A DNA stretch of 42,703 bases from Candidatus Zixiibacteriota bacterium (GCA_019038695.1 JAHOYZ010000035.1:1-42703); one strand, 5' to 3'. Shown: positions 27,051-39,720, counted from the stretch's first letter. The notes: generated by a model not told the origin, from the letters alone. Numbers and translations are program-made.

Positions 27051-28403
27051 CTATCTTTTGCCGGCCAGTCCGTATTCGACCAGCTTATTGCGAATTGTCC
27101 GCGATGACACACCCAACGCTTCGGCTGCTTGGGTTTTGTTGCCATTGAACTTCTCGAGGGTTTTCAGGATAAGATACTTGGATCCCTCCTCCAACCTCAT
27201 GGGAACCTTCAACTGAGGTAAGTCATCGGCCACTCTTCCCAGAGCAAGTTCGGTAGGAAAATCATCACTTGTCAGAATATCTGATTGACCCGTCACAACC
27301 GCCCGCTCGACCAGATTCTCCAGCTCTCTCACATTTCCCGGCCAGTGGTAACTCATCAATAAAGCCAACGCGGACTTATCAACCCCCTTCACCGAACGCC
27401 CGTTTTCCCGATTGTACTTTCCGATGAAGTGATCCACCAAGAGGTTAATGTCCTCGCGGCGTTCCTCGAGCGGAGCAAGATGAATGGGAATCACATTCAG
27501 GCGATAGAAAAGGTCTTCACGGAACTTGCCATCGGCAATGTGTCTTTTCAGATCACGATTCGAGGTAGCAATAAGTCGCACATCTACAGATATTGGCGTG
27601 GTCGAACCCACTCGTTCAAACTCACGCTCCTGAATAACGCGCAGCAATTTAGATTGCAGGTTAAAGGGCATCTCCGATATTTCATCAAGGAGAAGGGTTC
27701 CGCCATCGGCCAGTTCAAAACGACCTCGGTGGGTTCGTTTGGCATCAGTGAAAGCGCCCTTCTCATGACCAAACAGTTCAGTCTCGACAAGGTTCTCAGG
27801 CAAAGCGGCACAGTTGAGCGTAACGAACGGCTTATCTTTGCGGTCGGAAGAATAGTGAATGGCGCGTGCCACCATCTCCTTGCCTGTACCCGAGTCGCCG
27901 GAAATCATGATGGTTGAGCGGGCCGAGGCGACTGACCGAATCAAATCAAATATGTCTCTCATAGCGCTGGACTTGCCAATGATATTCTGAAATTTGTGTT
28001 CCAGGTCCTGACGCATGGTCTGGTTCTCGGAACGCAGACTCAGCACCTCGGTGATCCGTGACAATACATGAGCCACCGTCTCCGGAAGCACCGGCTTGAT
28101 AAGGAAATCGTATGCACCACTCTTGATGGCCCTGACAGCAGTATCAATAGTGCCATAGGCAGTCATAATCACAACCACCGATTCCGGACTGACCTTCTTG
28201 ATCCGCTCAAGCACTTCTATCCCATCCATGGCTTTCATCTTCAGATCGGTCAGAACAATATCGTAAGTTCGATCATTGAATGCAGCCATTGCCTCTTCAC
28301 CGGAGAACACGGCCTTGCAATAGTGACCGGTCCGACGAATTGTCTCCTCCATCAACTCATTTACGAGGACATCATCATCAACAACCAGAACCGAAAATTT
28401 CAT
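27051..28403 (-). CDS. flgR: NtrC-family sigma-54 activator, FlgR/FleR-like flagellar response regulator
   Basis: 450 residues. The receiver has the phospho-acceptor Asp53 (LTDLKM). The AAA+ sigma-54 interaction domain has Walker A GDSGTGKE, a sigma-54 contact loop reading GAFTDA, Walker B GGTLLLDEI, and later FREDLFYRLNVIPI. The Fis-type C-terminal HTH is NKTQAAEALGVSSRTIRNKL. The loop usually reads GAFTGA, so its second Gly is Asp here; this variant may still be active. It overlaps the histidine kinase gene by ATGA, so the two form a cognate pair. The flgB and flgF sigma-54 promoters in the same window are the obvious targets. The symbol follows function by context. Confidence 0.9.
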   Translation of the reverse strand: MKFSVLVVDDDVLVNELMEETIRRTGHYCKAVFSGEEAMAAFNDRTYDIVLTDLKMKAMDGIEVLERIKKVSPESVVVIMTAYGTIDTAVRAIKSGAYDFLIKPVLPETVAHVLSRITEVLSLRSENQTMRQDLEHKFQNIIGKSSAMRDIFDLIRSVASARSTIMISGDSGTGKEMVARAIHYSSDRKDKPFVTLNCAALPENLVETELFGHEKGAFTDAKRTHRGRFELADGGTLLLDEISEMPFNLQSKLLRVIQEREFERVGSTTPISVDVRLIATSNRDLKRHIADGKFREDLFYRLNVIPIHLAPLEERREDINLLVDHFIGKYNRENGRSVKGVDKSALALLMSYHWPGNVRELENLVERAVVTGQSDILTSDDFPTELALGRVADDLPQLKVPMRLEEGSKYLILKTLEKFNGNKTQAAEALGVSSRTIRNKLVEYGLAGKR

Positions 28404-29755
28404 GCTCTGTGCTCCATGTTATCAGTATTCGTCCTGAAAGGTAGCAGCAACCGAAAGACAGCCCCTCCGCTGTCCCGGTTCTCTGCCACAATATTTCCTC
28501 CGTGCGCCTTCATTATCTTCCAGACCATTGCCAGCCCAAGTCCATTCCCATCCATTCGCGTAGTGAAAAATGGTGCAAATATCTTCTCCAAATTGTCTTT
28601 CTCAATCCCCGGGCCATCGTCGGCAATATTGATCACAACAACGCCTTCATCCGACTCTAATAACAGCTTCTCCCCCCATTGCCGCACTCCTTCATCCTGA
28701 AGGAGATATTCAACATTGATCTCAATACAACCGTTGCCTGAAAAAGACTCGATCGCGTTGGCAAAAAGATTGCGAAAAACCTGCTTCATCAGGATGGGAT
28801 CGATACTCACCTCTATCGGCTCGTCTACTTCCGCCAGAATATCACCAAGCACAATATCAACGTCTTGAGACACCGTCGGATTATCCTGTCCAAACTGCCG
28901 AATCGTGGAAATAAGGTAATCCCGCAGAACTACTTCGGTCTGATTGGTTTTCTCCGACCGGGCATAGTCCAACAAGGTTGTAACAGTGTGATTAAGCGTT
29001 TCAACGCCCCGACGGATGTTGTCTGCCAATCGGAACCGAGGATCGGATTTATCAAGGTCCTGGGTCAACAACGCCGCGAAGCCACCAATTCCAGAAAGTG
29101 GATTACGCACTTCGTGCGCAATAGTTGCTGCCATCTCCCCCATTGCAGCCAGGGTGTTAAGACGCGCAAATTCCTGCTCCATCTTCTTCATCTTGGTCAT
29201 ATCCTGAAAGACTTCCACCGCCCCCGCTGGTTGCCCTTCATTGTCGCGCATTACCGCCGTTGATACCGACAAGAAGCGTCGGATGCCGTTGGTCAGCTCT
29301 ATTTGTCGCTCGGTAGACTCGACCGGTTGAGCACGCTGCGAAGTTCGCAATGCGTTCGCCTCGGACGGGGTTCCAGGAGGGATCATATCCCGGTAGAGAC
29401 TCCCTCGAACATCCTCTGCCTTCAAACCAAGAATACGCTCCGCTGCCAGATTGAAGTGGGTAATGCGGCCGTCTCGGTCCACCGCTACGACCCCGGCCGA
29501 GATTGAGTGAAGTATCCCGTTGAGGAACTCGGTAGCCTGAAGATTACGTTCAGTCAACTCGACAAGTAGAGTATTGGCCTCCGCAAGTTCCTGGTTCTGT
29601 GCCGAAAATCCCTCTTCCAGCTCAATATACTTGCGCTGGAGGGTATTGATCACTCGAGTAAACGATGCGTAGGACTCGGTAAAGCGTGAAACTTCGTTGG
29701 CCGTACTCGATTCCTTCAGAACCGCACTCCGTTCGTCATCCATAACATAACCCAT
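28400..29755 (-). CDS. flgS: PAS-domain histidine kinase, FlgS/FleS-like partner of the sigma-54 activator
   Basis: 451 residues, soluble with no membrane helix. An N-terminal coiled coil (~25-75) precedes a PAS domain at about 80-190 (ILHSISAGVVAVDRDGRITHFN). The HisKA domain has its His near 214 (TIAHEVRNPLSGIGGF), and the HATPase contains NAIESFSGNGCIEI, DDGPGIEKDNLEKIFAPFFT and GLGLAMVWKIM. A cytoplasmic kinase fits sensing of flagellar assembly state, as reported for FlgS in epsilonproteobacteria. The stop overlaps the regulator start (ATGA). It follows cheB by 55 bp. Confidence 0.88.
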   Translation of the reverse strand: MGYVMDDERSAVLKESSTANEVSRFTESYASFTRVINTLQRKYIELEEGFSAQNQELAEANTLLVELTERNLQATEFLNGILHSISAGVVAVDRDGRITHFNLAAERILGLKAEDVRGSLYRDMIPPGTPSEANALRTSQRAQPVESTERQIELTNGIRRFLSVSTAVMRDNEGQPAGAVEVFQDMTKMKKMEQEFARLNTLAAMGEMAATIAHEVRNPLSGIGGFAALLTQDLDKSDPRFRLADNIRRGVETLNHTVTTLLDYARSEKTNQTEVVLRDYLISTIRQFGQDNPTVSQDVDIVLGDILAEVDEPIEVSIDPILMKQVFRNLFANAIESFSGNGCIEINVEYLLQDEGVRQWGEKLLLESDEGVVVINIADDGPGIEKDNLEKIFAPFFTTRMDGNGLGLAMVWKIMKAHGGNIVAENRDSGGAVFRLLLPFRTNTDNMEHRA

Positions 29756-30928: not shown

Positions 30929-32779
30929 TTAGCTTATCTTTCTGGCCACGCTGAACATCCCGGCAATATCTACAATGAGCCGAATGCGTCCGTCGCCAAG
31001 GATCGTCGCACCTGCCACTCCCTCTGTTGCCCCGAGGTAGTTGCCCAACGACTTGATGACCACCTCTTCCTGACCCAGGAAACGATCTACTATGATTCCG
31101 AGTTTCTTCTCAGCCAAGCCCACAATGACAATGTACGGTTTCTCTGTCATAATGAACCCGTGGGAATTGGCGCGGAGGATCTCGGCCAAATTGATGATCG
31201 GTATGATCTCGTCTCGCAGCCGCAGAACGGGCCGTTTGTTAATGTAGAACACTTCGGCCTGCTCGGTCTTAACTGTCTCCAACACCGACGCCAACGGCAG
31301 GATGAATACTTCGTCATCACTCTCCACCAACAGGCCCTGAATGATAGCCAGTGTTAGCGGCAGCTTGATCGTAATCGAAGAACCCTTGCCCTCCTTCGTA
31401 TCAAGCTCGATCAATCCATTTAGTTTCTCGATATTGGAACGCACGACATCCATTCCCACGCCCCGACCGGAAACATCAGTCACCACTTTGGCCGTTGAGA
31501 AACCTGCCTCGAAAACATACCTGACAATTTCACGCTCAGACATCCTGGCCAGAGCGTCCTCAGTAGTCAATCCGCGTTCGATAGCTTTGTCCTTGATTGC
31601 CTGCAGAGCAAACCCACGACCGTCATCGGTAATCTTGATAATGATATGAGACCCTTCCTGGCAGGCCTCAAGATGTACCGATCCTTTGGCCGGTTTTCCG
31701 GCCGCGACACGATCCTCGGCAGATTCGAGGCCATGGTCACAGGAATTGCGAATAATATGAACCAGTGGGTCGCCAATCTCTTCAATCACACTGCGATCGA
31801 GTTCAGTACTTTCGCCGGATATCTTCAGTTCGATTTGCTTGCCGGAATCGCGGGAGAGATCTCGCACCAAACGCGGAAAACGACCAAACACTTTGCCAAT
31901 GGGTTGCATACGCATCTTCATCACGGCCATTTGCAATTCAGTCGTAATGAAGTTGATCGCGGTCGCCGCATTGTTGATACCCTCAAAATTTTGGTCTCCC
32001 TCATGATCCCGGTTCAGTATCCCGAGGGACTGTTGCATGCTATTGCGACCCAGTACCAGTTCACCCATCATATTCATCAGCGTATCCACTCGCCCGACAT
32101 CAACTCGAATCGTCTGATCGCCTGACTTCCGGGACGGTTTAGAAGGAGAGGGTTTACCGGAGCTCTTGGCCGGTGCTGAAGGGGCCGACTTGGTTGGCAC
32201 CTCCAAAACTGCTACCGCTTCCTGTGTTTCTGCTACAAACGCCGGCTCCGTGTCGAAGTTTGGCGGGGCAACAGCTTCAGCGGTTGTGGATTCCTCAGGT
32301 ATTTCGAAGGTGGGCGCATCGGGAGCTGCATCTTCGGGACTCATTGTCAACGAATCAGCGTTGCCGTCAGTGCCACCCTCCATTATTACGATCAGACGCT
32401 TAGTAACATCGGTAAGATCAAGTTCTTCGCTGTTGCCTTCGCGAACGTTTTCAAGGAGCACCTTCAATATATCGAGCGATTCGAGCAGGATGTCCATTAC
32501 TTCCGGAGTAACGACCATCTCGGACTTACGAAGCTTATTAAGAATATCTTCCATCTTGTGGGTCAGTGAAGTAACCTGCTCAAACCCAAGGAAACTGGAT
32601 GTTCCTTTTATCGTGTGTGCTGCCCGGAATATCTCGTTGAGCAAATCAAGGTCGTCGGGAGTAGTCTCGAGCTTGACGAGGTTCGTGTCCAGTGATGCGA
32701 TGAGTTCGTCTGCTTCAACCAGGAAATCATCAATGATTTCCTTCATCTCATCCTGGTCCAATTCAAAAGCGTCGGACAT
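30929..32779 (-). CDS. cheA: Chemotaxis histidine kinase CheA, lacking a recognisable P2 domain
   Basis: 616 residues. The P1/HPt domain has the phosphorylated His55 (AAHTIKGTSSFLGF). Residues ~125-225 are a Pro/Ala/Ser/Lys-rich linker where P2 would be. P3 dimerisation (RVDTLMNMMGELVLGRNSM), the P4 kinase (HIIRNSCDHGLE, DDGRGFALQAI, GRGVGMDVVRSNI) and the P5 CheW-like domain (VFILPLASVLETVK and EKKLGIIVDRFLGQ) follow. It phosphorylates CheY and CheB. Without P2, regulator recruitment must go through P1 directly. Confidence 0.96.
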   Translation of the reverse strand: MSDAFELDQDEMKEIIDDFLVEADELIASLDTNLVKLETTPDDLDLLNEIFRAAHTIKGTSSFLGFEQVTSLTHKMEDILNKLRKSEMVVTPEVMDILLESLDILKVLLENVREGNSEELDLTDVTKRLIVIMEGGTDGNADSLTMSPEDAAPDAPTFEIPEESTTAEAVAPPNFDTEPAFVAETQEAVAVLEVPTKSAPSAPAKSSGKPSPSKPSRKSGDQTIRVDVGRVDTLMNMMGELVLGRNSMQQSLGILNRDHEGDQNFEGINNAATAINFITTELQMAVMKMRMQPIGKVFGRFPRLVRDLSRDSGKQIELKISGESTELDRSVIEEIGDPLVHIIRNSCDHGLESAEDRVAAGKPAKGSVHLEACQEGSHIIIKITDDGRGFALQAIKDKAIERGLTTEDALARMSEREIVRYVFEAGFSTAKVVTDVSGRGVGMDVVRSNIEKLNGLIELDTKEGKGSSITIKLPLTLAIIQGLLVESDDEVFILPLASVLETVKTEQAEVFYINKRPVLRLRDEIIPIINLAEILRANSHGFIMTEKPYIVIVGLAEKKLGIIVDRFLGQEEVVIKSLGNYLGATEGVAGATILGDGRIRLIVDIAGMFSVARKIS

Positions 32780-32809: not shown

Positions 32810-33394
32810 TTACTTGCCGGAGAAGAGCGAGTCTATGTCCGCCTGGGTTGTCTTAGTGTTGGTAAACTCAGCATTCGGATCAAACACTCGTTCCTTATGT
32901 TCGACTGTCGCTTCAGCCACATCATTGGAACCTTGAATGACACTGACGATTGAGTTCAAACGAGTCTCAAGGCTCTCAAGTAAACTTGCCGCATGATTCA
33001 TTTGCTGAGCTGTGATATCCTGAAACTGAAGCGCATCCATAATCAGAAAGGCATCCTCGTAGTTCGTCTGAACCTTCTTGATCAAAGCATCCACAGATGG
33101 AGCAAAGTCGCCTAGATCGCCGTCTACCACTTTCACCTTGATGGCCTTCAGACCCTGAATCACCTCTTCCTCTCGCTGGGAAATACCTTCAACCTTATCG
33201 AGCATCTGATGAGCAGCTGCTTCTGTCTGTTCGCTGATCTTGTCGAGCTGTTCAGTCGCCCGGGGAACGGTCTCCCTGGATTCTGCCAACGGATTCTGTA
33301 GCTGCCGGAACTTGTCAACAACTTCGGTGATTGAAGACGCAAGTGCGACAACTTCAGACTGCATCTTCTGATATAGTTTTTCACTGATAGCCAT
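32810..33394 (-). CDS. cheZ: CheY-P phosphatase CheZ
   Basis: 194 residues, helical. The catalytic DxxxQ pair is present (Asp126 and Gln130 in ALQFQDITAQQMNHA). The C-terminus ends in a CheY-binding amphipathic peptide (QADIDSLFSGK), as in enterobacterial CheZ. The rest resembles the long four-helix bundle of CheZ dimers. It accelerates CheY-P dephosphorylation. The position between cheY and cheA supports it. Confidence 0.88.
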   Translation of the reverse strand: MAISEKLYQKMQSEVVALASSITEVVDKFRQLQNPLAESRETVPRATEQLDKISEQTEAAAHQMLDKVEGISQREEEVIQGLKAIKVKVVDGDLGDFAPSVDALIKKVQTNYEDAFLIMDALQFQDITAQQMNHAASLLESLETRLNSIVSVIQGSNDVAEATVEHKERVFDPNAEFTNTKTTQADIDSLFSGK

Positions 33395-33417: not shown

Positions 33418-33792
33418 TCAGGCTTTAAGAACCTGCTCAATTTTTTCTTTGAGCGTGTCCGGGGTGAATGGTTTTACGATATAGTTGTTGACGCCAGCTT
33501 TGAGCGCTTCGACGATGTCATCCTTAACCGACCGGGTCGTAACCATCAGGATCGGCAGAGTCTTATACTTATCCATACCCCTCACGGTTGTGACAAAGGT
33601 CAGGCCGTCCATCTCGGGCATATTCCAGTCCGTGATGATGAAGTTTACGTCTTCAACTTTCAGTTTTGCAAGGGCATCTTTACCGTCGCCAGCCTCCACC
33701 ACATCAGCATAGCCCGCTCTTTTGAGCGTATTGATGATGATGCGGCGCATGGTCGGACTGTCATCGACTGCGAGGATTTTCAGATCTGCCAC
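33418..33792 (-). CDS. cheY: Chemotaxis response regulator CheY
   Basis: 124 residues, single receiver domain. The acidic pair Asp10/Asp11, phospho-acceptor Asp55 (IITDWNMPEMDG), the conserved Thr/Ser region MVTTRS and the Lys in YIVKPF are all present. The WNMPEMDGL stretch is very close to classical motor-binding CheY. The start is GTG at 33792, with GGAGG 4 nt upstream. It sits directly before cheZ. Confidence 0.95.
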   Translation of the reverse strand: MADLKILAVDDSPTMRRIIINTLKRAGYADVVEAGDGKDALAKLKVEDVNFIITDWNMPEMDGLTFVTTVRGMDKYKTLPILMVTTRSVKDDIVEALKAGVNNYIVKPFTPDTLKEKIEQVLKA

Positions 33793-33822: not shown

Positions 33823-34194
33823 TCATTTCAAATGCTTGGATACTTCGTCCAGTAACAGAGATGACTTGAATGGTTTGACCAAGTACGAACTTGCACCTAC
33901 CTCCAAACCACGCACACGGTCCTCTTCCGAGTCTTCAGACGAGAGTATTATTATCGGTGTCTGGGCGTGCTCCTCGCTCTCCCTTAATGTGTGGATGAGA
34001 CTATACCCGTCCAGATTGGGCATATTGAGATCAGTTATAACCAACGCGATCTCTTCTTGAGCCCCTGATATTGTCTCAATTGCCTCCATACCGTCGCCTG
34101 CCGTCAGGACATTGTAGCCCTTGTTCTTCAGAGAGAACGAGACGAACTTCACAACAGTCGTAGAATCATCAACAACAAGGATTGTCTGTGCCAT
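33823..34194 (-). CDS. Second CheY-like single-domain response regulator
   Basis: 123 residues, receiver only: Asp9/Asp10, phospho-acceptor Asp55 (VITDLNMPNLDGYS), switch residues LSSED and the Lys in YLVKPF. It resembles CheY/PilH-type regulators but lacks the near-consensus CheY motif of its neighbour. It could act as a phosphate sink or control a different output. It is placed between cheR and cheY with about 30-bp gaps on each side. Confidence 0.9.
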   Translation of the reverse strand: MAQTILVVDDSTTVVKFVSFSLKNKGYNVLTAGDGMEAIETISGAQEEIALVITDLNMPNLDGYSLIHTLRESEEHAQTPIIILSSEDSEEDRVRGLEVGASSYLVKPFKSSLLLDEVSKHLK

Positions 34195-34223: not shown

Positions 34224-35234
34224 TCACTTCTTAACCGTCATCGGCTTAATCTTGCGGAGAAGATCTATCGCCTTTGACGCACCACTAGTTGCCCCCATGC
34301 TGGATATTTTGGATGTCGTCGGCAGCCGCTTAGCAGTAAGTCCGGCCCCGGTGGACGGCTTGGTTGTAGTAACACCGACCGCCTCCTTCCGATAAACCAA
34401 CGCGTTCTTCAAATATACCAGCTTGAATGATTTGGAGATGCCGTGGAGAGTCTCCGAGTGGCCTATGAAAAAGTTACCACCGGGCCTCAGGCTATTGTAA
34501 AAACCACGTACAATCTGTCGCTTCACTTCGTCGGAGAAATAGATCATAACGTTCCGACAAAAGATCGTATCACAATTGGAATTGAGCGAGATCATACGTG
34601 ATTCGCTGAGATTGACGAATGAAAATTTAACCATGGCCTTGATCTCAGGTTTCACCCGATAGAGATCGTCAATTTTGTCGAAGTATTTGGTCAGTTGCTG
34701 GGGCTGCACATTACGCAAAGTGATCCCACTATATTCTCCCCGGCGTGCCTTCTGGAGCACTTCTTCGGAGATATCATTGGCTATAATCTCCACCTTCCAC
34801 CCTGGTTTGGCCGCAAGTTGTTCCATGCAAATCATTCCCAGAGTGTAGGGCTCTTCGCCGGTAGAACATCCCGCCGACCAGATCTTGATGACCTTTGGTC
34901 TACCCTCCTCCGTTTTCTCCTTGATAATCGACGGCAGCACTTCTTCGGCAAAGCAGCGCAACTGCGGTTCGTTGCGGAAAAAACTGGTCTCATTAGTAGT
35001 CATGAGATCCATAAGGTGATGGAATTCTTTCATTGAGGTGTCATATTTAACGTGGTAGAAGTAGTCCTTGTAGGTCTTGAATGAAAGCTCAGCCATACGC
35101 CTATCCAATCGATTCTTGACCAGATACATCTTGTTTGAGGCGAAGAACATACCACTTTTTTCGTGAATAAAGTCGCGAATCAGCTCGAACTCTTCATCCG
35201 TCATCTTCAGTTCTTCGGTCGTATTATCCAGCAT
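34224..35234 (-). CDS. cheR: Chemoreceptor methyltransferase CheR
   Basis: 336 residues. The N-terminal helical domain is at ~15-85 (LMTTNETSFFRNEPQL), followed by the SAM-binding domain (IKIWSAGCSTGEEPYTLGM, IIANDISEEVLQKAR, NCDTIFCRNVMIYFSDEVK, GGNFFIGHSETL). It transfers methyl groups to receptor glutamates. The C-terminal ~55 residues are a Thr/Lys/Ser-rich extension beyond the usual fold. It follows the lone receiver gene by 53 bp. Confidence 0.96.
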   Translation of the reverse strand: MLDNTTEELKMTDEEFELIRDFIHEKSGMFFASNKMYLVKNRLDRRMAELSFKTYKDYFYHVKYDTSMKEFHHLMDLMTTNETSFFRNEPQLRCFAEEVLPSIIKEKTEEGRPKVIKIWSAGCSTGEEPYTLGMICMEQLAAKPGWKVEIIANDISEEVLQKARRGEYSGITLRNVQPQQLTKYFDKIDDLYRVKPEIKAMVKFSFVNLSESRMISLNSNCDTIFCRNVMIYFSDEVKRQIVRGFYNSLRPGGNFFIGHSETLHGISKSFKLVYLKNALVYRKEAVGVTTTKPSTGAGLTAKRLPTTSKISSMGATSGASKAIDLLRKIKPMTVKK

Positions 35235-35287: not shown

Positions 35288-35677
35288 TCACGATTCGTTA
35301 ACTGCTCCCTTTGAGCCCTCAAGTTGCGCCTTAATCGTTTTATATAACCGATTGATATTGAACGGCTTCGTTACATAGTCCGCAACCCGACTCCGAAGCG
35401 CTTCTACCGCTGAATCAACCGACGGATACGCTGTCATTATGATCACCGGGATATCCGGAAAGGACGAGCGCATCTCGGAAGTGAGCGCCAATCCATCCAT
35501 ATCCGGCATCCGAAGATCAGTCAGCACCAGATCGACTTTTCGATTACCTAGAATTTCGAGTGCCTTCTGGCCATTTTCGGCCACCGATGTCTGCCACCCC
35601 TGACTCACGAAAAAATCGTAAAGGAGATCTCGAATCAGTAGCTCATCATCGACTATTAGAATTGATCCCTCTGGCAT
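35288..35677 (-). CDS. Single-domain response regulator (NtrC-type receiver)
   Basis: 129 residues, receiver only, with Asp10/Asp11, phospho-acceptor Asp54 (VLTDLRMPDMDGLAL), MTAYPSVDSAVEAL and KPFNINRLYKTI. The sequence style (TDLRMPDMDG, IIMTAYPSVDSAVEALR) is that of NtrC-class receivers, not CheY, suggesting descent from a DNA-binding regulator that lost its output domain. Its ATG overlaps the stop of the HEAT-repeat gene (TGATG), which implies tight coupling and perhaps physical interaction. Confidence 0.9.
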   Translation of the reverse strand: MPEGSILIVDDELLIRDLLYDFFVSQGWQTSVAENGQKALEILGNRKVDLVLTDLRMPDMDGLALTSEMRSSFPDIPVIIMTAYPSVDSAVEALRSRVADYVTKPFNINRLYKTIKAQLEGSKGAVNES

Positions 35678-37584
35678 CAGCTAACTCCTTCTAATGATGA
35701 GACGGCTTCCCGGACGGCCGAAATGAGATCCTCATTCTTCTCGCCATCAAGCTCGCGGATATCAGAAAGTGCCTCGCGGCAACCCAGTTGTGCCAACGCC
35801 TTTGTGGTTGCAATCTTGATGATATCCTGATCGTCACGCAGGTACGGGCGCAGATATTCACCAAACTGGCTTTGACCTGTTCCTGCAATAGTGATTATCG
35901 TGTGATACCTAACCCAGACATCGCCATCATCCAGCAGGAATCGAATATTGTCGACAGCAGACTCTCCTTTGAGGGCTATCAAGGCTGATACCGCAGCCTT
36001 GCGCACACCGCTATTCTCGTCGTTAAGAGCCTGTAGTAGCAGGTCGGTATCAACGTCGTGACCTATCTTTGTAAGAGCACAGATGGCCGAACGTCGAACA
36101 CTGGCCTCGGGATGACTGGCGGCCTTCAGCAGCGGTTCCACTACCTCGGCTTCACCGATCATTCCCAGTGAAATAACAGCCAGGCGCTGCCGTTCAATGT
36201 CCTCGTGGTAGAGATCGGCAGTAAGCTTGGCTACAACCTTGGTTCCACCTACTATAATAAGAGCACCTACAGCGGCCTCACGAACATCCGGATAGGGATC
36301 GTCGAGTCCGGTCAGAAGAAAGTCGACATCTTGTTCACTACAGAGCCAACCTGCAGACCTGAAGGCGGCCGAACGAACATGTCCCACTTCATCACGTGCC
36401 ATTTTTTTCAACGTCGGCAGAACTTTGTCGCTGCCGGAGCCACCCATGACACCTGCAATCCTGGCCCGGACTTCGGGGGCCTCATCGTCGGCATACTTGA
36501 TCAAACTGGCCGCGATATTCTCGTCAGCGTATTGCTTAAGAATGTCAAGGATGATCACTTTGGCTTGCGGTGTTGCTTTCGGAAATTTCTGGAGAAGAAC
36601 GCTGGAAGCTGAAGCTCCAGCCTGCCCGAGAGCTTCAATGAAGCGACACGAGTTTTCCTCGTCCACTGAGTCAAGGACGTCCACTATGGACTCAACGACG
36701 TTCTTGCCATACCAGCAAGAAAGACGAGCAAGAATGAAGTCGGTAATCCGCTTGTCCTTGCGCTTGACACCATCAAATAGGTGCTCGACAAAACGATCGA
36801 GAGGCAGGTCGTAGTCCAGTCGTCCGTTGTTGGCAGCACTAATATTGATGATCGCCATCAGTGCTACCTCAGCAATAGTCGTGTCGTTATCGTCAAGAAT
36901 GGGTACAAGCTTTTCGATTGACCCCAACATACCGGTGAAACCAATGGCTTCAATCGAAGCATATTTGATCATCGGATCATCGGTCTCAAGATAGCCAAAG
37001 AGTGTGTCCAGAGTACCAGGGTCACCGATCTTCCCCATGGCCTCAACGGCCTGGAGCCTGGCATCCTCAACCCGCTCGTAGACTTTTATCAACTCCGGGA
37101 TACACTTCGGTGATCCAACTTCTCCCAAGGCCTCAGTGGCTGAAACAACAACATTAGAATTATCATCCCAGAGAGACTTACAAAGAGCGTCAACCGCAGT
37201 TTCATCCTTGATCAGGCCGAGGATATCAACTATGAACTTTCTAATGTCATAGTCATCGTCGGCCAGGTTGTCGATAAGGGGCTGCACTGCCGGTTGGCCT
37301 ATCTTGATCAGTATCTCAGAGGCCAGATTGCGGGTACCAATGTCTTCATGGCCCAGGAAGCGTATCAAGAGATGGGCTCCTGTTTGGCTCTTCGTCTGGA
37401 CCAACATGTCGGCTGCCAACTCGCGTATCCCCATATCAGGATCATCAAGGGCGGTCACCAGGCCAGCAATGGCCTCGTCCTGATCGTGCTCACCCAGTTT
37501 CTTGACGGCATCCTCGCGTTCAAAGAAATCCGGCGACTGCAACTGAGCCAACAACTCCACTATTTTATCGAATCCATTTGTCAT
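35677..37584 (-). CDS. HEAT-repeat scaffold protein in the chemotaxis operon
   Basis: 635 residues built almost entirely of roughly 31-residue HEAT/PBS-lyase-type repeats, about twenty copies (for example AVDALCKSLWDDNSNVVVSA and VGALIIVGGTKVVAKLT). No catalytic domain, signal peptide or membrane helix is visible, so it is probably a cytoplasmic protein-protein scaffold. It is preceded by a STAS protein and followed, with overlapping codons, by a lone receiver. HEAT-repeat proteins occur in other chemosensory clusters (Cpc7 in the Myxococcus Che7 system), but the function here is unknown. Confidence 0.85.
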   Translation of the reverse strand: MTNGFDKIVELLAQLQSPDFFEREDAVKKLGEHDQDEAIAGLVTALDDPDMGIRELAADMLVQTKSQTGAHLLIRFLGHEDIGTRNLASEILIKIGQPAVQPLIDNLADDDYDIRKFIVDILGLIKDETAVDALCKSLWDDNSNVVVSATEALGEVGSPKCIPELIKVYERVEDARLQAVEAMGKIGDPGTLDTLFGYLETDDPMIKYASIEAIGFTGMLGSIEKLVPILDDNDTTIAEVALMAIINISAANNGRLDYDLPLDRFVEHLFDGVKRKDKRITDFILARLSCWYGKNVVESIVDVLDSVDEENSCRFIEALGQAGASASSVLLQKFPKATPQAKVIILDILKQYADENIAASLIKYADDEAPEVRARIAGVMGGSGSDKVLPTLKKMARDEVGHVRSAAFRSAGWLCSEQDVDFLLTGLDDPYPDVREAAVGALIIVGGTKVVAKLTADLYHEDIERQRLAVISLGMIGEAEVVEPLLKAASHPEASVRRSAICALTKIGHDVDTDLLLQALNDENSGVRKAAVSALIALKGESAVDNIRFLLDDGDVWVRYHTIITIAGTGQSQFGEYLRPYLRDDQDIIKIATTKALAQLGCREALSDIRELDGEKNEDLISAVREAVSSLEGVS

Positions 37585-37613
37585 GAATCATGCTCCCCTA
37601 ATAGTGAATGTCC

Positions 37614-37964
37614 TCAGCTGGCCGAAACTGTACTGTAGGAATTCAGGGCTTCTTCTTCAGTAGCAAATATTTCGAAAATGTGAGATAACTGAGTGATGTC
37701 GAAAATCTCCTGGACATAGCTGGCCAGATTAGACAGGGTCAGACGCCCCTTAATAAGCCGACTTTCTTTCATTATTGAAACCAGCGAACCCAATCCGGAA
37801 CTGTTAATGAACTCCACCCCTTTGAGATTGAGGTGAATCGAGGTCTTGTTCTGTCCGAAGCAACTCTTGATCTCTTCCTTCAGAGCAGTTCCGCTGGCAA
37901 GGTCAAGGCGCCCCTCAAGACTCAGGATGATGATCCCACCCTCTTCTTTCATAGTAGTATCCAT
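37614..37964 (-). CDS. STAS-domain anti-sigma factor antagonist (RsbV/SpoIIAA-like)
   Basis: 116 residues from ATG 37964, which has GGAGG 5 nt upstream; a GTG four codons earlier is less likely. A single STAS domain is present: IIILSLEGRLDLASGTALKE, then VEFINSSGLGSLVSIMKES, where a Ser in the NSSGLG loop is the expected phosphorylation site. It follows the RsbW-like kinase gene by 18 bp and so is its presumed substrate. The target of the partner switch is not evident. Confidence 0.92.
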   Translation of the reverse strand: MDTTMKEEGGIIILSLEGRLDLASGTALKEEIKSCFGQNKTSIHLNLKGVEFINSSGLGSLVSIMKESRLIKGRLTLSNLASYVQEIFDITQLSHIFEIFATEEEALNSYSTVSAS

Positions 37965-37982
37965 GACATCCTCCACATATAC

Positions 37983-38414
37983 TTAGTTTTGTAAAATCTT
38001 ACTGTAATCTTCTTGTCGGTCGAATGTAGCCGATACCTTAAGTCCCCCTGTCTTCGTGCAGTGAAATTTAATATTGTTAGCAAAGTGCTCCATAAGGCCA
38101 ATACCCCGACCACTTTCCGCCATCGGGTCTGGTGCCACGCGACTGCGCGAGAAGCCAGTGCCTCCCTCTCCCTGATCGGTTACACTAATTTTGATTTGGG
38201 TTGTGTTTATCTCAATTTCGATTGTGATTATCTTGTTGGGATCCAGTCTGTTGCCATGAATCAGAGCGTTAATAAACGCTTCAGAGGTTGTCTGCATGAC
38301 AGCGTTGCCAACATCTCTGCTGATCTGGTGTTTGGCCAGAGTTGCCTCCAGTTGGTTAAGCATTTGCTCCTCTGACTCGGCGATTGAACTGTATGTATAG
38401 CAGTATCGCGCCAT
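37983..38414 (-). CDS. RsbW-like anti-sigma/serine kinase (GHKL ATPase)
   Basis: 143 residues, GHKL fold: N-box QTTSEAFINALIHGNRLDP, G1 box VTDQGEGGTGF and G2 box ESGRGIGLMEHFANNI. Proteins of this type phosphorylate a STAS partner and sequester a sigma factor or another client. The gene lies between the SpoIIE-type phosphatase and the STAS protein, a complete partner-switch cassette. No sigma factor gene is adjacent, so the client may be something else, possibly within the chemotaxis or motor apparatus. Confidence 0.92.
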   Translation of the reverse strand: MARYCYTYSSIAESEEQMLNQLEATLAKHQISRDVGNAVMQTTSEAFINALIHGNRLDPNKIITIEIEINTTQIKISVTDQGEGGTGFSRSRVAPDPMAESGRGIGLMEHFANNIKFHCTKTGGLKVSATFDRQEDYSKILQN

Positions 38415-38415
38415 T

Positions 38416-39720
38416 CTATTCCACCTTCACCTGGAGAATTGTGAAATCATCGTGCGAGTCTTCCGATGATCCCACATTGAAACGATCTACCCACTCTTTC
38501 ACCTTCATGCAAAATTCGGCTGGTTCAAGGCCTACTTCAGCTGAAAATACCTGCTCTGCTCGCTCCCGACCAAACATACGTCCCTCGGCATCTTCCGCTT
38601 CAGTCAGACCATCGGTGAAAAGAAAAAGCCTGTCACCTGACGCAATAGACCGACTACCTTCCTTAAATGTTACCCCACCAAACTGGCCTACAATCGGCCC
38701 TCCCTCGGAAAGTTCGACGATCTTCTGCTCATCATTACTCCAAAACAGACCGGGAAGGTGTCCACCATTGCAATATGTGATCTTCATATCTTCCAAATCA
38801 AACTTGGCGAAAAACATCGTGATGAACATCTCTCGTTCCTTGATAATCTCTTCCACCAGCAAATCATTGAGCCGCATGGCCAGGCCGCTGATTGAAATCG
38901 ACGGGCGTTCGGTCACGATTGATTTCATGATTCCCGCCGCGGCCGCCATCACCAGCGCCGCAGGTACTCCCTTATTCGAAACATCGCCAAGTATTACCAG
39001 GAATCTCTTTTCATCGATTTGATGAGTCTGGTAAAAATCGCCGCCAACTTCCCGCGCCGGAAAATATACAGCGCCTATCTCACAACCTGGGATTTCGGCA
39101 ATATCGTGTGGTAGGATTGTCCCCTGAATCTCGCGAGCAATTGTCATTTCTTGCTCGATCTTCTGTCTACCCAGCTGTTCCTCCAGCAGGAGTGAATTGT
39201 CGATAGCAACCGCCACGAAGTTTAGAAGCATTTCGAGGCTTTCCCGATTCTCGTCGTCAAATCCCCCGCCATTAGCCTTGTTGATCATTAACATCACGCC
39301 ATGACAATGATCTGCAGTTTGAATGGGAAGGCAGATGATGGAATCAATGGCAATACCTCCTTCATCCCTGACCCCCAGATCGTTTAGTATGACTGTCTCG
39401 CGATTCTGATAACAGTAGGTTGGAAGATCAGTGTTGTTACGATAAACGAGCGATCGCACGAAACTCTCCTGGACACCCCAGGAAATCTTCAGGACAAGTT
39501 TGTCCTCCTCCTCCAGCATGATCAATCCGACTTCGCCATCAGCTAATCTGATAGCCATATCCATGACAACCGACAGAACGGAATTTATCTCGTGGATCGA
39601 CGTGATCACCGCTCCCATTGTCGCCAGGTCTCTTAGCTCGGCCTTCTTAGATGCAAGCTTTGCTTCGAGTTCATCGGGCGTCAAATCGAGCTCGCGCTTA
39701 ACTATTGACGAATAAGACAT
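38416..39720 (-). CDS. GAF-SpoIIE phosphatase (RsbU-like), first gene of the chemotaxis operon
   Basis: 434 residues. A short N-terminal coil (~10-40) precedes a GAF domain at ~45-180 (VMDMAIRLADGEVGLIML and SIICLPIQTADHCHGVMLM). A helical linker (EQEMTIAREIQGTILP) leads to a PP2C/SpoIIE phosphatase domain at ~215-434 with the metal-binding motifs VGGDFY, LGDVSNKGVPAAL, and TYCNGGHLPGLF plus the late DDFTILQV. It would dephosphorylate the STAS partner in response to a GAF-sensed cue. It is promoter-proximal and only 1 bp before the kinase gene. Confidence 0.93.
   Translation of the reverse strand: MSYSSIVKRELDLTPDELEAKLASKKAELRDLATMGAVITSIHEINSVLSVVMDMAIRLADGEVGLIMLEEEDKLVLKISWGVQESFVRSLVYRNNTDLPTYCYQNRETVILNDLGVRDEGGIAIDSIICLPIQTADHCHGVMLMINKANGGGFDDENRESLEMLLNFVAVAIDNSLLLEEQLGRQKIEQEMTIAREIQGTILPHDIAEIPGCEIGAVYFPAREVGGDFYQTHQIDEKRFLVILGDVSNKGVPAALVMAAAAGIMKSIVTERPSISISGLAMRLNDLLVEEIIKEREMFITMFFAKFDLEDMKITYCNGGHLPGLFWSNDEQKIVELSEGGPIVGQFGGVTFKEGSRSIASGDRLFLFTDGLTEAEDAEGRMFGRERAEQVFSAEVGLEPAEFCMKVKEWVDRFNVGSSEDSHDDFTILQVKVE

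Follow-up and report, generated by a model that had tools for sequence, protein, structure and literature searches.

The five genes at positions 35288-39720 of a Candidatus Zixiibacteriota sequence (GCA_019038695.1 JAHOYZ010000035.1:1-42703; this whole stretch of 42,703 nucleotides is called the window below) encode an RsbU-type phosphatase, an RsbW-type kinase, a STAS protein, a HEAT-repeat protein and a stand-alone receiver, and they stand at the head of a chemotaxis operon. With high confidence, they are divided into two units by comparison with other genomes of the phylum. One is the partner switch (RsbU, RsbW and STAS) with the stand-alone receiver, which is joined phylum-wide to a PAS kinase and an NtrC-type sigma-54 activator and which, almost without exception, occurs together with flagella. 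The other is the HEAT protein, which appears to be a chemotaxis protein lying between STAS and receiver and not a core part of the switch. A mechanism in which the receiver would act on the switch in trans, and STAS on the kinase/NtrC pair, is by itself put forward tentatively; the two units together with this mechanism are considered the probable explanation of the locus.

The five open reading frames, which a preliminary description had proposed on one strand and with the same domains, were recovered on the minus strand with intergenic gaps of -1 to 29 bases and were confirmed by Pfam and NCBIfam searches:

38416..39720, minus strand: rsbU, GAF + SpoIIE (PP2C-type) serine phosphatase (Pfam E-value for GAF and SpoIIE, 1.7e-42)
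37983..38414, minus strand: rsbW, GHKL serine kinase, after a 1-base gap from rsbU (HATPase_c_2, 2.3e-15)
37614..37976, minus strand: STAS (RsbV/SpoIIAA-like), GTG start, after a 6-base gap from rsbW (STAS, 1.5e-20)
35677..37584, minus strand: HEAT solenoid protein, between STAS and receiver, after a 29-base gap from STAS (HEAT_2, 2.4e-77)
35288..35677, minus strand: stand-alone NtrC-class receiver, overlapping HEAT by 1 base (Response_reg, 3.8e-31)

The phylum was sampled with 132 Zixibacteria genomes, mostly metagenome bins, for which an absence from a single bin is weak evidence, so that the argument rests on the pattern across many genomes; the species are related by descent and test values are descriptive only. 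Scores of the module STAS profile were cleanly bimodal, with members at 108 bits or above and background STAS proteins at 88 bits or below. FliF was found in 98 of the 132 genomes and CheA in 70, and the module STAS in 102, including 92 of the 98 with FliF, which agrees with the tie to motility suggested earlier. In 41 flagellated genomes the module STAS is present without HEAT. HEAT orthologues occur in 58 of the 132 genomes, where they were compared with flagellar-type CheA, a label given to the shorter CheA (about 600 amino acids) from protein length and match strength and not from a tree. Both proteins are present in 46 genomes, HEAT only in 12, CheA only in none and neither in 74; the corresponding Fisher value of 1e-24 takes no account of common descent, and the 12 HEAT-only genomes include several incomplete ones. 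In 53 STAS loci where the kinase or ntrC is present as well, HEAT and cheR occur together in 28, HEAT alone in three, cheR alone in none and neither in 22. As the module STAS tracks FliF and HEAT tracks flagellar CheA, the switch and receiver are tied to flagella, and HEAT to chemotaxis.

A scan for the HEAT motif, blind to che genes, returned 34 loci outside Zixibacteria, and HEAT lies directly before cheR in 20 of them; these HEAT-cheR loci belong to Calditrichota, KSB1, Neomarinimicrobiota and Myxococcaceae, and no switch gene was detected beside them. A single-sequence query of named genomes gave no match, the alignment-based scan did. HEAT scores alone are no proof of orthology, as long cyanobacterial HEAT proteins also score well, and the argument is carried by synteny. 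Module-like STAS proteins in Calditrichota, KSB1 and Neomarinimicrobiota reached 57-88 bits at best, which is background, and the STAS loci read there were not the same block. The assignment of HEAT to chemotaxis is suggested because the protein tracks cheA and cheR within the phylum and precedes cheR in other phyla without the switch.

The 635-residue HEAT protein was modelled with AlphaFold2 as a regular all-helical solenoid of about 39 helices (mean predicted confidence, pLDDT, 92.7), with invariant residues clustered at about 54-190 and 373-560 and a variable middle. A kinship with a particular solved protein was considered and rejected, since Foldseek returned generic solenoids (SF3b, CAND1, PP2A-A, importins) with low TM-scores; the modelled fold would say only that the protein is a HEAT solenoid. 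A single long HEAT frame in another locus (L061:8932-11541) begins with a ClpC N-terminal domain near the contig end and is probably an assembly chimera.

Downstream of the receiver the che genes follow, as had been described, in an order that is corrected here to cheR-cheY1-cheY2-cheZ-cheA-cheB with two cheY genes, and these are succeeded by a PAS histidine kinase, an NtrC-type activator, motA, motB and flagellar structural genes:

34224..35234, minus strand: cheR
33823..34194, minus strand: cheY1, missing where HEAT is missing
33418..33792, minus strand: cheY2, the most conserved gene of the locus, kept in some loci without HEAT or CheA
32810..33394, minus strand: cheZ-like phosphatase
30929..32779, minus strand: cheA, flagellar type, 616 amino acids
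29811..30914, minus strand: cheB
28400..29755, minus strand: PAS + HisKA histidine kinase (AtoS-like), a constant neighbour of the STAS-receiver unit
27051..28403, minus strand: NtrC/FlbD/FlgR-type sigma-54 activator, also a constant neighbour of that unit

Upstream of rsbU lie der and a DUF512 radical-SAM gene. A sigma-54 promoter pattern had 15 matches against 10.5 expected, none of them just upstream of rsbU, and was not informative.

The gene order is not unique to the source genome. A survey of loci with or without che genes, as the preliminary description had proposed, found that it recurs far beyond chance in seven families of the phylum (f1, f2, f3, f5, f9, f10 and f15), and rsbU-rsbW-STAS-HEAT-receiver is kept on every contig of sufficient length; in family f2, rsbU and rsbW are fused. 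In a set of 69 STAS loci, in which two genomes are counted twice, the gene after STAS is HEAT in 42 and directly the receiver in 25. The fusion of rsbU with rsbW in f2, and of rsbW with STAS into a single protein in families f4, f18 and f19, ties phosphatase, kinase and STAS together and suggests that the three act jointly; no fusion of HEAT with any switch protein was found among the relatives' loci. The homologous place was also read in ten flagellated genomes without HEAT. Seven of them have the switch genes, STAS and the receiver followed by the kinase, ntrC and motAB, without cheR, cheB, cheY1 and full-length cheA, and in two of these rsbW and STAS form one protein; in the remaining three the block lies elsewhere in the genome. 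A 309-residue mini-CheA with Hpt-like and ATPase parts and apparently no dimerisation or CheW domain lies between cheY2 and the PAS kinase in two lineages (L052:12227-13156 and L204:10870-11799) from which cheB and full-length CheA have been lost.

The idea that the module needs flagella was rejected, as parts of it are kept in genomes without FliF, two of which were also checked for FlhA. These two genomes (G090 and G091, neither FliF nor FlhA) keep STAS, and G090 also rsbW; G117 (no FliF) has the switch complete; and G125, G126 and G127 (no FliF) have STAS, the receiver and a second receiver together with ntrC, without adjacent rsbU and rsbW, of which unlinked copies are possible. As the adjacency of STAS and receiver survives without HEAT, che genes, flagella and adjacent rsbU/rsbW, these two are the most persistent pair of the block. 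The loci of G090 and G091 (L175 and L176) also hold an N-terminally truncated HEAT, two receivers, cheY2, a cheZ-like gene, the kinase and ntrC as open frames. A second STAS-receiver pair is found in genome G028 (L215:7565-8357), followed by a 767-residue protein with an N-terminal receiver domain, and in families f18 and f19 (L208, L211, L213, L218 and L223) the STAS-receiver block adjoins genes for an AI-2E-type transporter or a dicarboxylate symporter.

The active-site residues of phosphatase, kinase and STAS protein are intact, as would befit a switch of the RsbU/RsbW/RsbV type. In RsbU, D228, D246, D424 and D425 are invariant among relatives and probably form the metal site. RsbW keeps E45, N49, G82 and G102-R103-G104 of the N and G boxes of the GHKL kinase. 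The phospho-serine motif of STAS reads NSSGLG in the window, and [N/D]SSGLG is found in 68 of the 69 loci. With a mean identity of 62%, STAS is the most conserved member of the switch, whereas RsbW (31%) is the fastest-evolving of the five proteins. Conservation of the one while the other drifts suggests that STAS, rather than RsbW, touches a conserved target and carries the output.

The receiver, closest to AtoC/NtrC-class receivers in NCBIfam, keeps the invariant residues D10-D11, D54, T82 and K104 and a nearly invariant alpha-1 motif, DDELLIRDLLYDFF. The receiver's motif DDELLIRDLLYD and active site are retained despite the loss of CheA from a genome. Of the loci that hold both CheA and HEAT, 30 of 32 have the motif; so do all 11 loci that hold HEAT and lack CheA, and 16 of the 23 that lack both. 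Some of the CheA-less loci are cut by contig ends, and G010, G017 and G053 are the clear cases. Judging from these sequences, a motif that does not change on the loss of CheA makes it unlikely that the receiver has CheA as its only kinase. STAS and the PAS-kinase/NtrC pair accompany the receiver more constantly than any other neighbours, and the PAS-HisKA protein beside NtrC is the constant kinase among them. Many relatives have, after this receiver, another single-domain receiver that is extended at its C-terminus (for example L033:8764-9255 and L208:9298-9828); the window lacks it.

The closest described systems are HsbR-HsbA and CrsR-CrsA. In HsbR of Pseudomonas aeruginosa, receiver, PP2C and kinase domains within one protein control the STAS protein HsbA (PMC6482189; PMC8256260). 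As in HptB-HsbR-HsbA, a PP2C phosphatase, a GHKL-type kinase and a receiver converge on one STAS protein with a tie to flagellar expression and motility; unlike the single polypeptide HsbR, the parts in Zixibacteria are mostly separate genes, fused only in f2 and in f4, f18 and f19, the phosphatase bears a GAF domain and neither FlgM nor HptB was found beside the switch. CrsR-CrsA of Shewanella oneidensis is a partner switch in the che1 locus that controls RpoS (PMC9855816). The Zixibacteria switch is likewise encoded inside a chemosensory gene cluster but, unlike CrsR-CrsA, it persists where the che genes are lost and stays with the kinase/NtrC pair. HEAT proteins that work with chemotaxis proteins have been described, such as Cpc7, a CheY7-binding protein of Myxococcus xanthus (PMC11514114), and OE2401F, a HEAT_PBS protein that Halobacterium needs for motor switching (PMC2666748). 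The Zixibacteria protein, whether or not orthologous, resembles them in this association, known here from gene linkage, and differs as a 635-residue solenoid encoded between STAS and the receiver. A HEAT-cheR locus (L118) was also found in M. xanthus, without assignment to a named Che system. The PAS-kinase/NtrC pair presumably resembles the flagellar kinases and sigma-54 activators of the FlrBC, FlgSR and FlbD type, a similarity also seen in NCBIfam. It shares with them the position directly beside motA/motB and the flagellar operon; in contrast to them, it is constantly joined to the STAS-receiver unit and is kept in some non-flagellated genomes. No paper was found in the literature that joins HEAT, STAS, SpoIIE and flagella, that deals with flagellar control in Zixibacteria or that gives a HEAT protein before cheR a role in bacterial flagellar chemotaxis.

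It is conceivable from these comparisons that the adjacent PAS histidine kinase phosphorylates the receiver, with CheA acting at most in addition. The receiver would then act on the switch in trans, as the fused receiver domain of HsbR and CrsR does in cis, and would shift STAS between its phosphorylated and free forms. The output of STAS would most likely reach the adjacent kinase/NtrC control of flagellar transcription, perhaps with a direct contact between STAS and receiver. The most likely place of HEAT would be in chemotaxis, together with CheR and CheY1, where it might offer a CheY-type receiver a docking platform. A further-reaching proposal is possible but doubtful: STAS and the single-domain receiver would be an inseparable pair through which serine phosphorylation is linked to the histidine kinase and NtrC, with no alternative sigma factor as target, and in chemotactic lineages HEAT would couple this pair physically to the Che proteins.

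The preliminary description had read the five genes as a single module in which HEAT would serve the switch as scaffold or client and the receiver would take its phosphoryl input from CheA. The near-overlapping genes and the order conserved in seven families speak for this reading, as do the persistence of HEAT in some CheA-less genomes and the rarity of HEAT without STAS, seen in just two genomes, one of them with a contig that starts inside HEAT. It is nevertheless improbable and was given up on both counts: the 41 flagellated genomes with STAS and no HEAT, the tracking of HEAT with cheA and cheR and the HEAT-cheR linkage in phyla without the switch separate HEAT from the other four genes, and a receiver unchanged in CheA-less genomes argues against CheA as its input. 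Marginally less probable still is a non-transcriptional motility target for STAS, such as a diguanylate cyclase or the motor. HsbA, which binds HsbD, provides a precedent (PMC6482189), and the block is tightly associated with motA/motB and flagellar genes, but its conserved genes include no cyclase gene, and it stays together with the NtrC activator even where FliF is missing.

Somewhat better placed, though unlikely, is control of a distant sigma factor, in which RsbW would be the anti-sigma of an unlinked sigma, for example of the FliA/WhiG type, and STAS its antagonist. The intact active-site residues of RsbU, RsbW and STAS would allow it, HsbA acts on FlgM/FliA in Pseudomonas (PMC6482189), and a FliA/WhiG-type sigma is encoded elsewhere in the genome (G000, contig C52:63326-64000), in which FlgM was not detected. 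As had been noted, no sigma factor is adjacent, and comparison with FliA proteins detected no sigma-70-family open reading frame in 72 loci (1.04 Mb). A cognate sigma factor nearby is not a strict requirement of partner switches, several of which act on other targets. RsbW is the least conserved member, which is unexpected if it holds a conserved sigma, and STAS-receiver units exist without adjacent rsbW. A FliA/WhiG-type sigma is present in 131 of the 132 genomes, including those without flagellar genes; FlgM was found in six of 61 relatives (two over the cut-off), this 55-residue family being easily missed. FlgM/FliA was therefore set aside as the obvious target, as co-occurrence cannot decide with FlgM barely detectable and FliA universal.

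Against the favoured division into a flagella-linked switch with receiver and a chemotaxis HEAT protein stands the position of HEAT inside the switch operon, together with its retention in a few genomes that lost flagellar CheA (G010, G017, G053, G047, G090 and G091, among which G047 and G091 are incomplete); HEAT may have a role in the switch too. Genomes without HEAT also lack cheR/cheA at the same place, so that one deletion could remove them together. Receivers without the exact motif occur in three f17 genomes (L219-L221) and in f16 (L207), and a mirror-tree (distance-matrix) test of the STAS-receiver pairing was discarded, as nearly all genes correlated and the pair was not singled out. 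Finally, all functional partners, and with them every interaction and the direction of signalling, are what we infer from gene order.

Partner switches are known mainly as controls of sigma factors. Here, most of an uncultured phylum has conserved such a switch next to a kinase/NtrC pair; a stand-alone receiver accompanies it most faithfully, and none of the copies has a sigma gene nearby. The analysis also sets apart a HEAT protein that lies directly before cheR in several phyla. The action of a partner switch without an adjacent sigma factor thereby becomes directly testable with few proteins.

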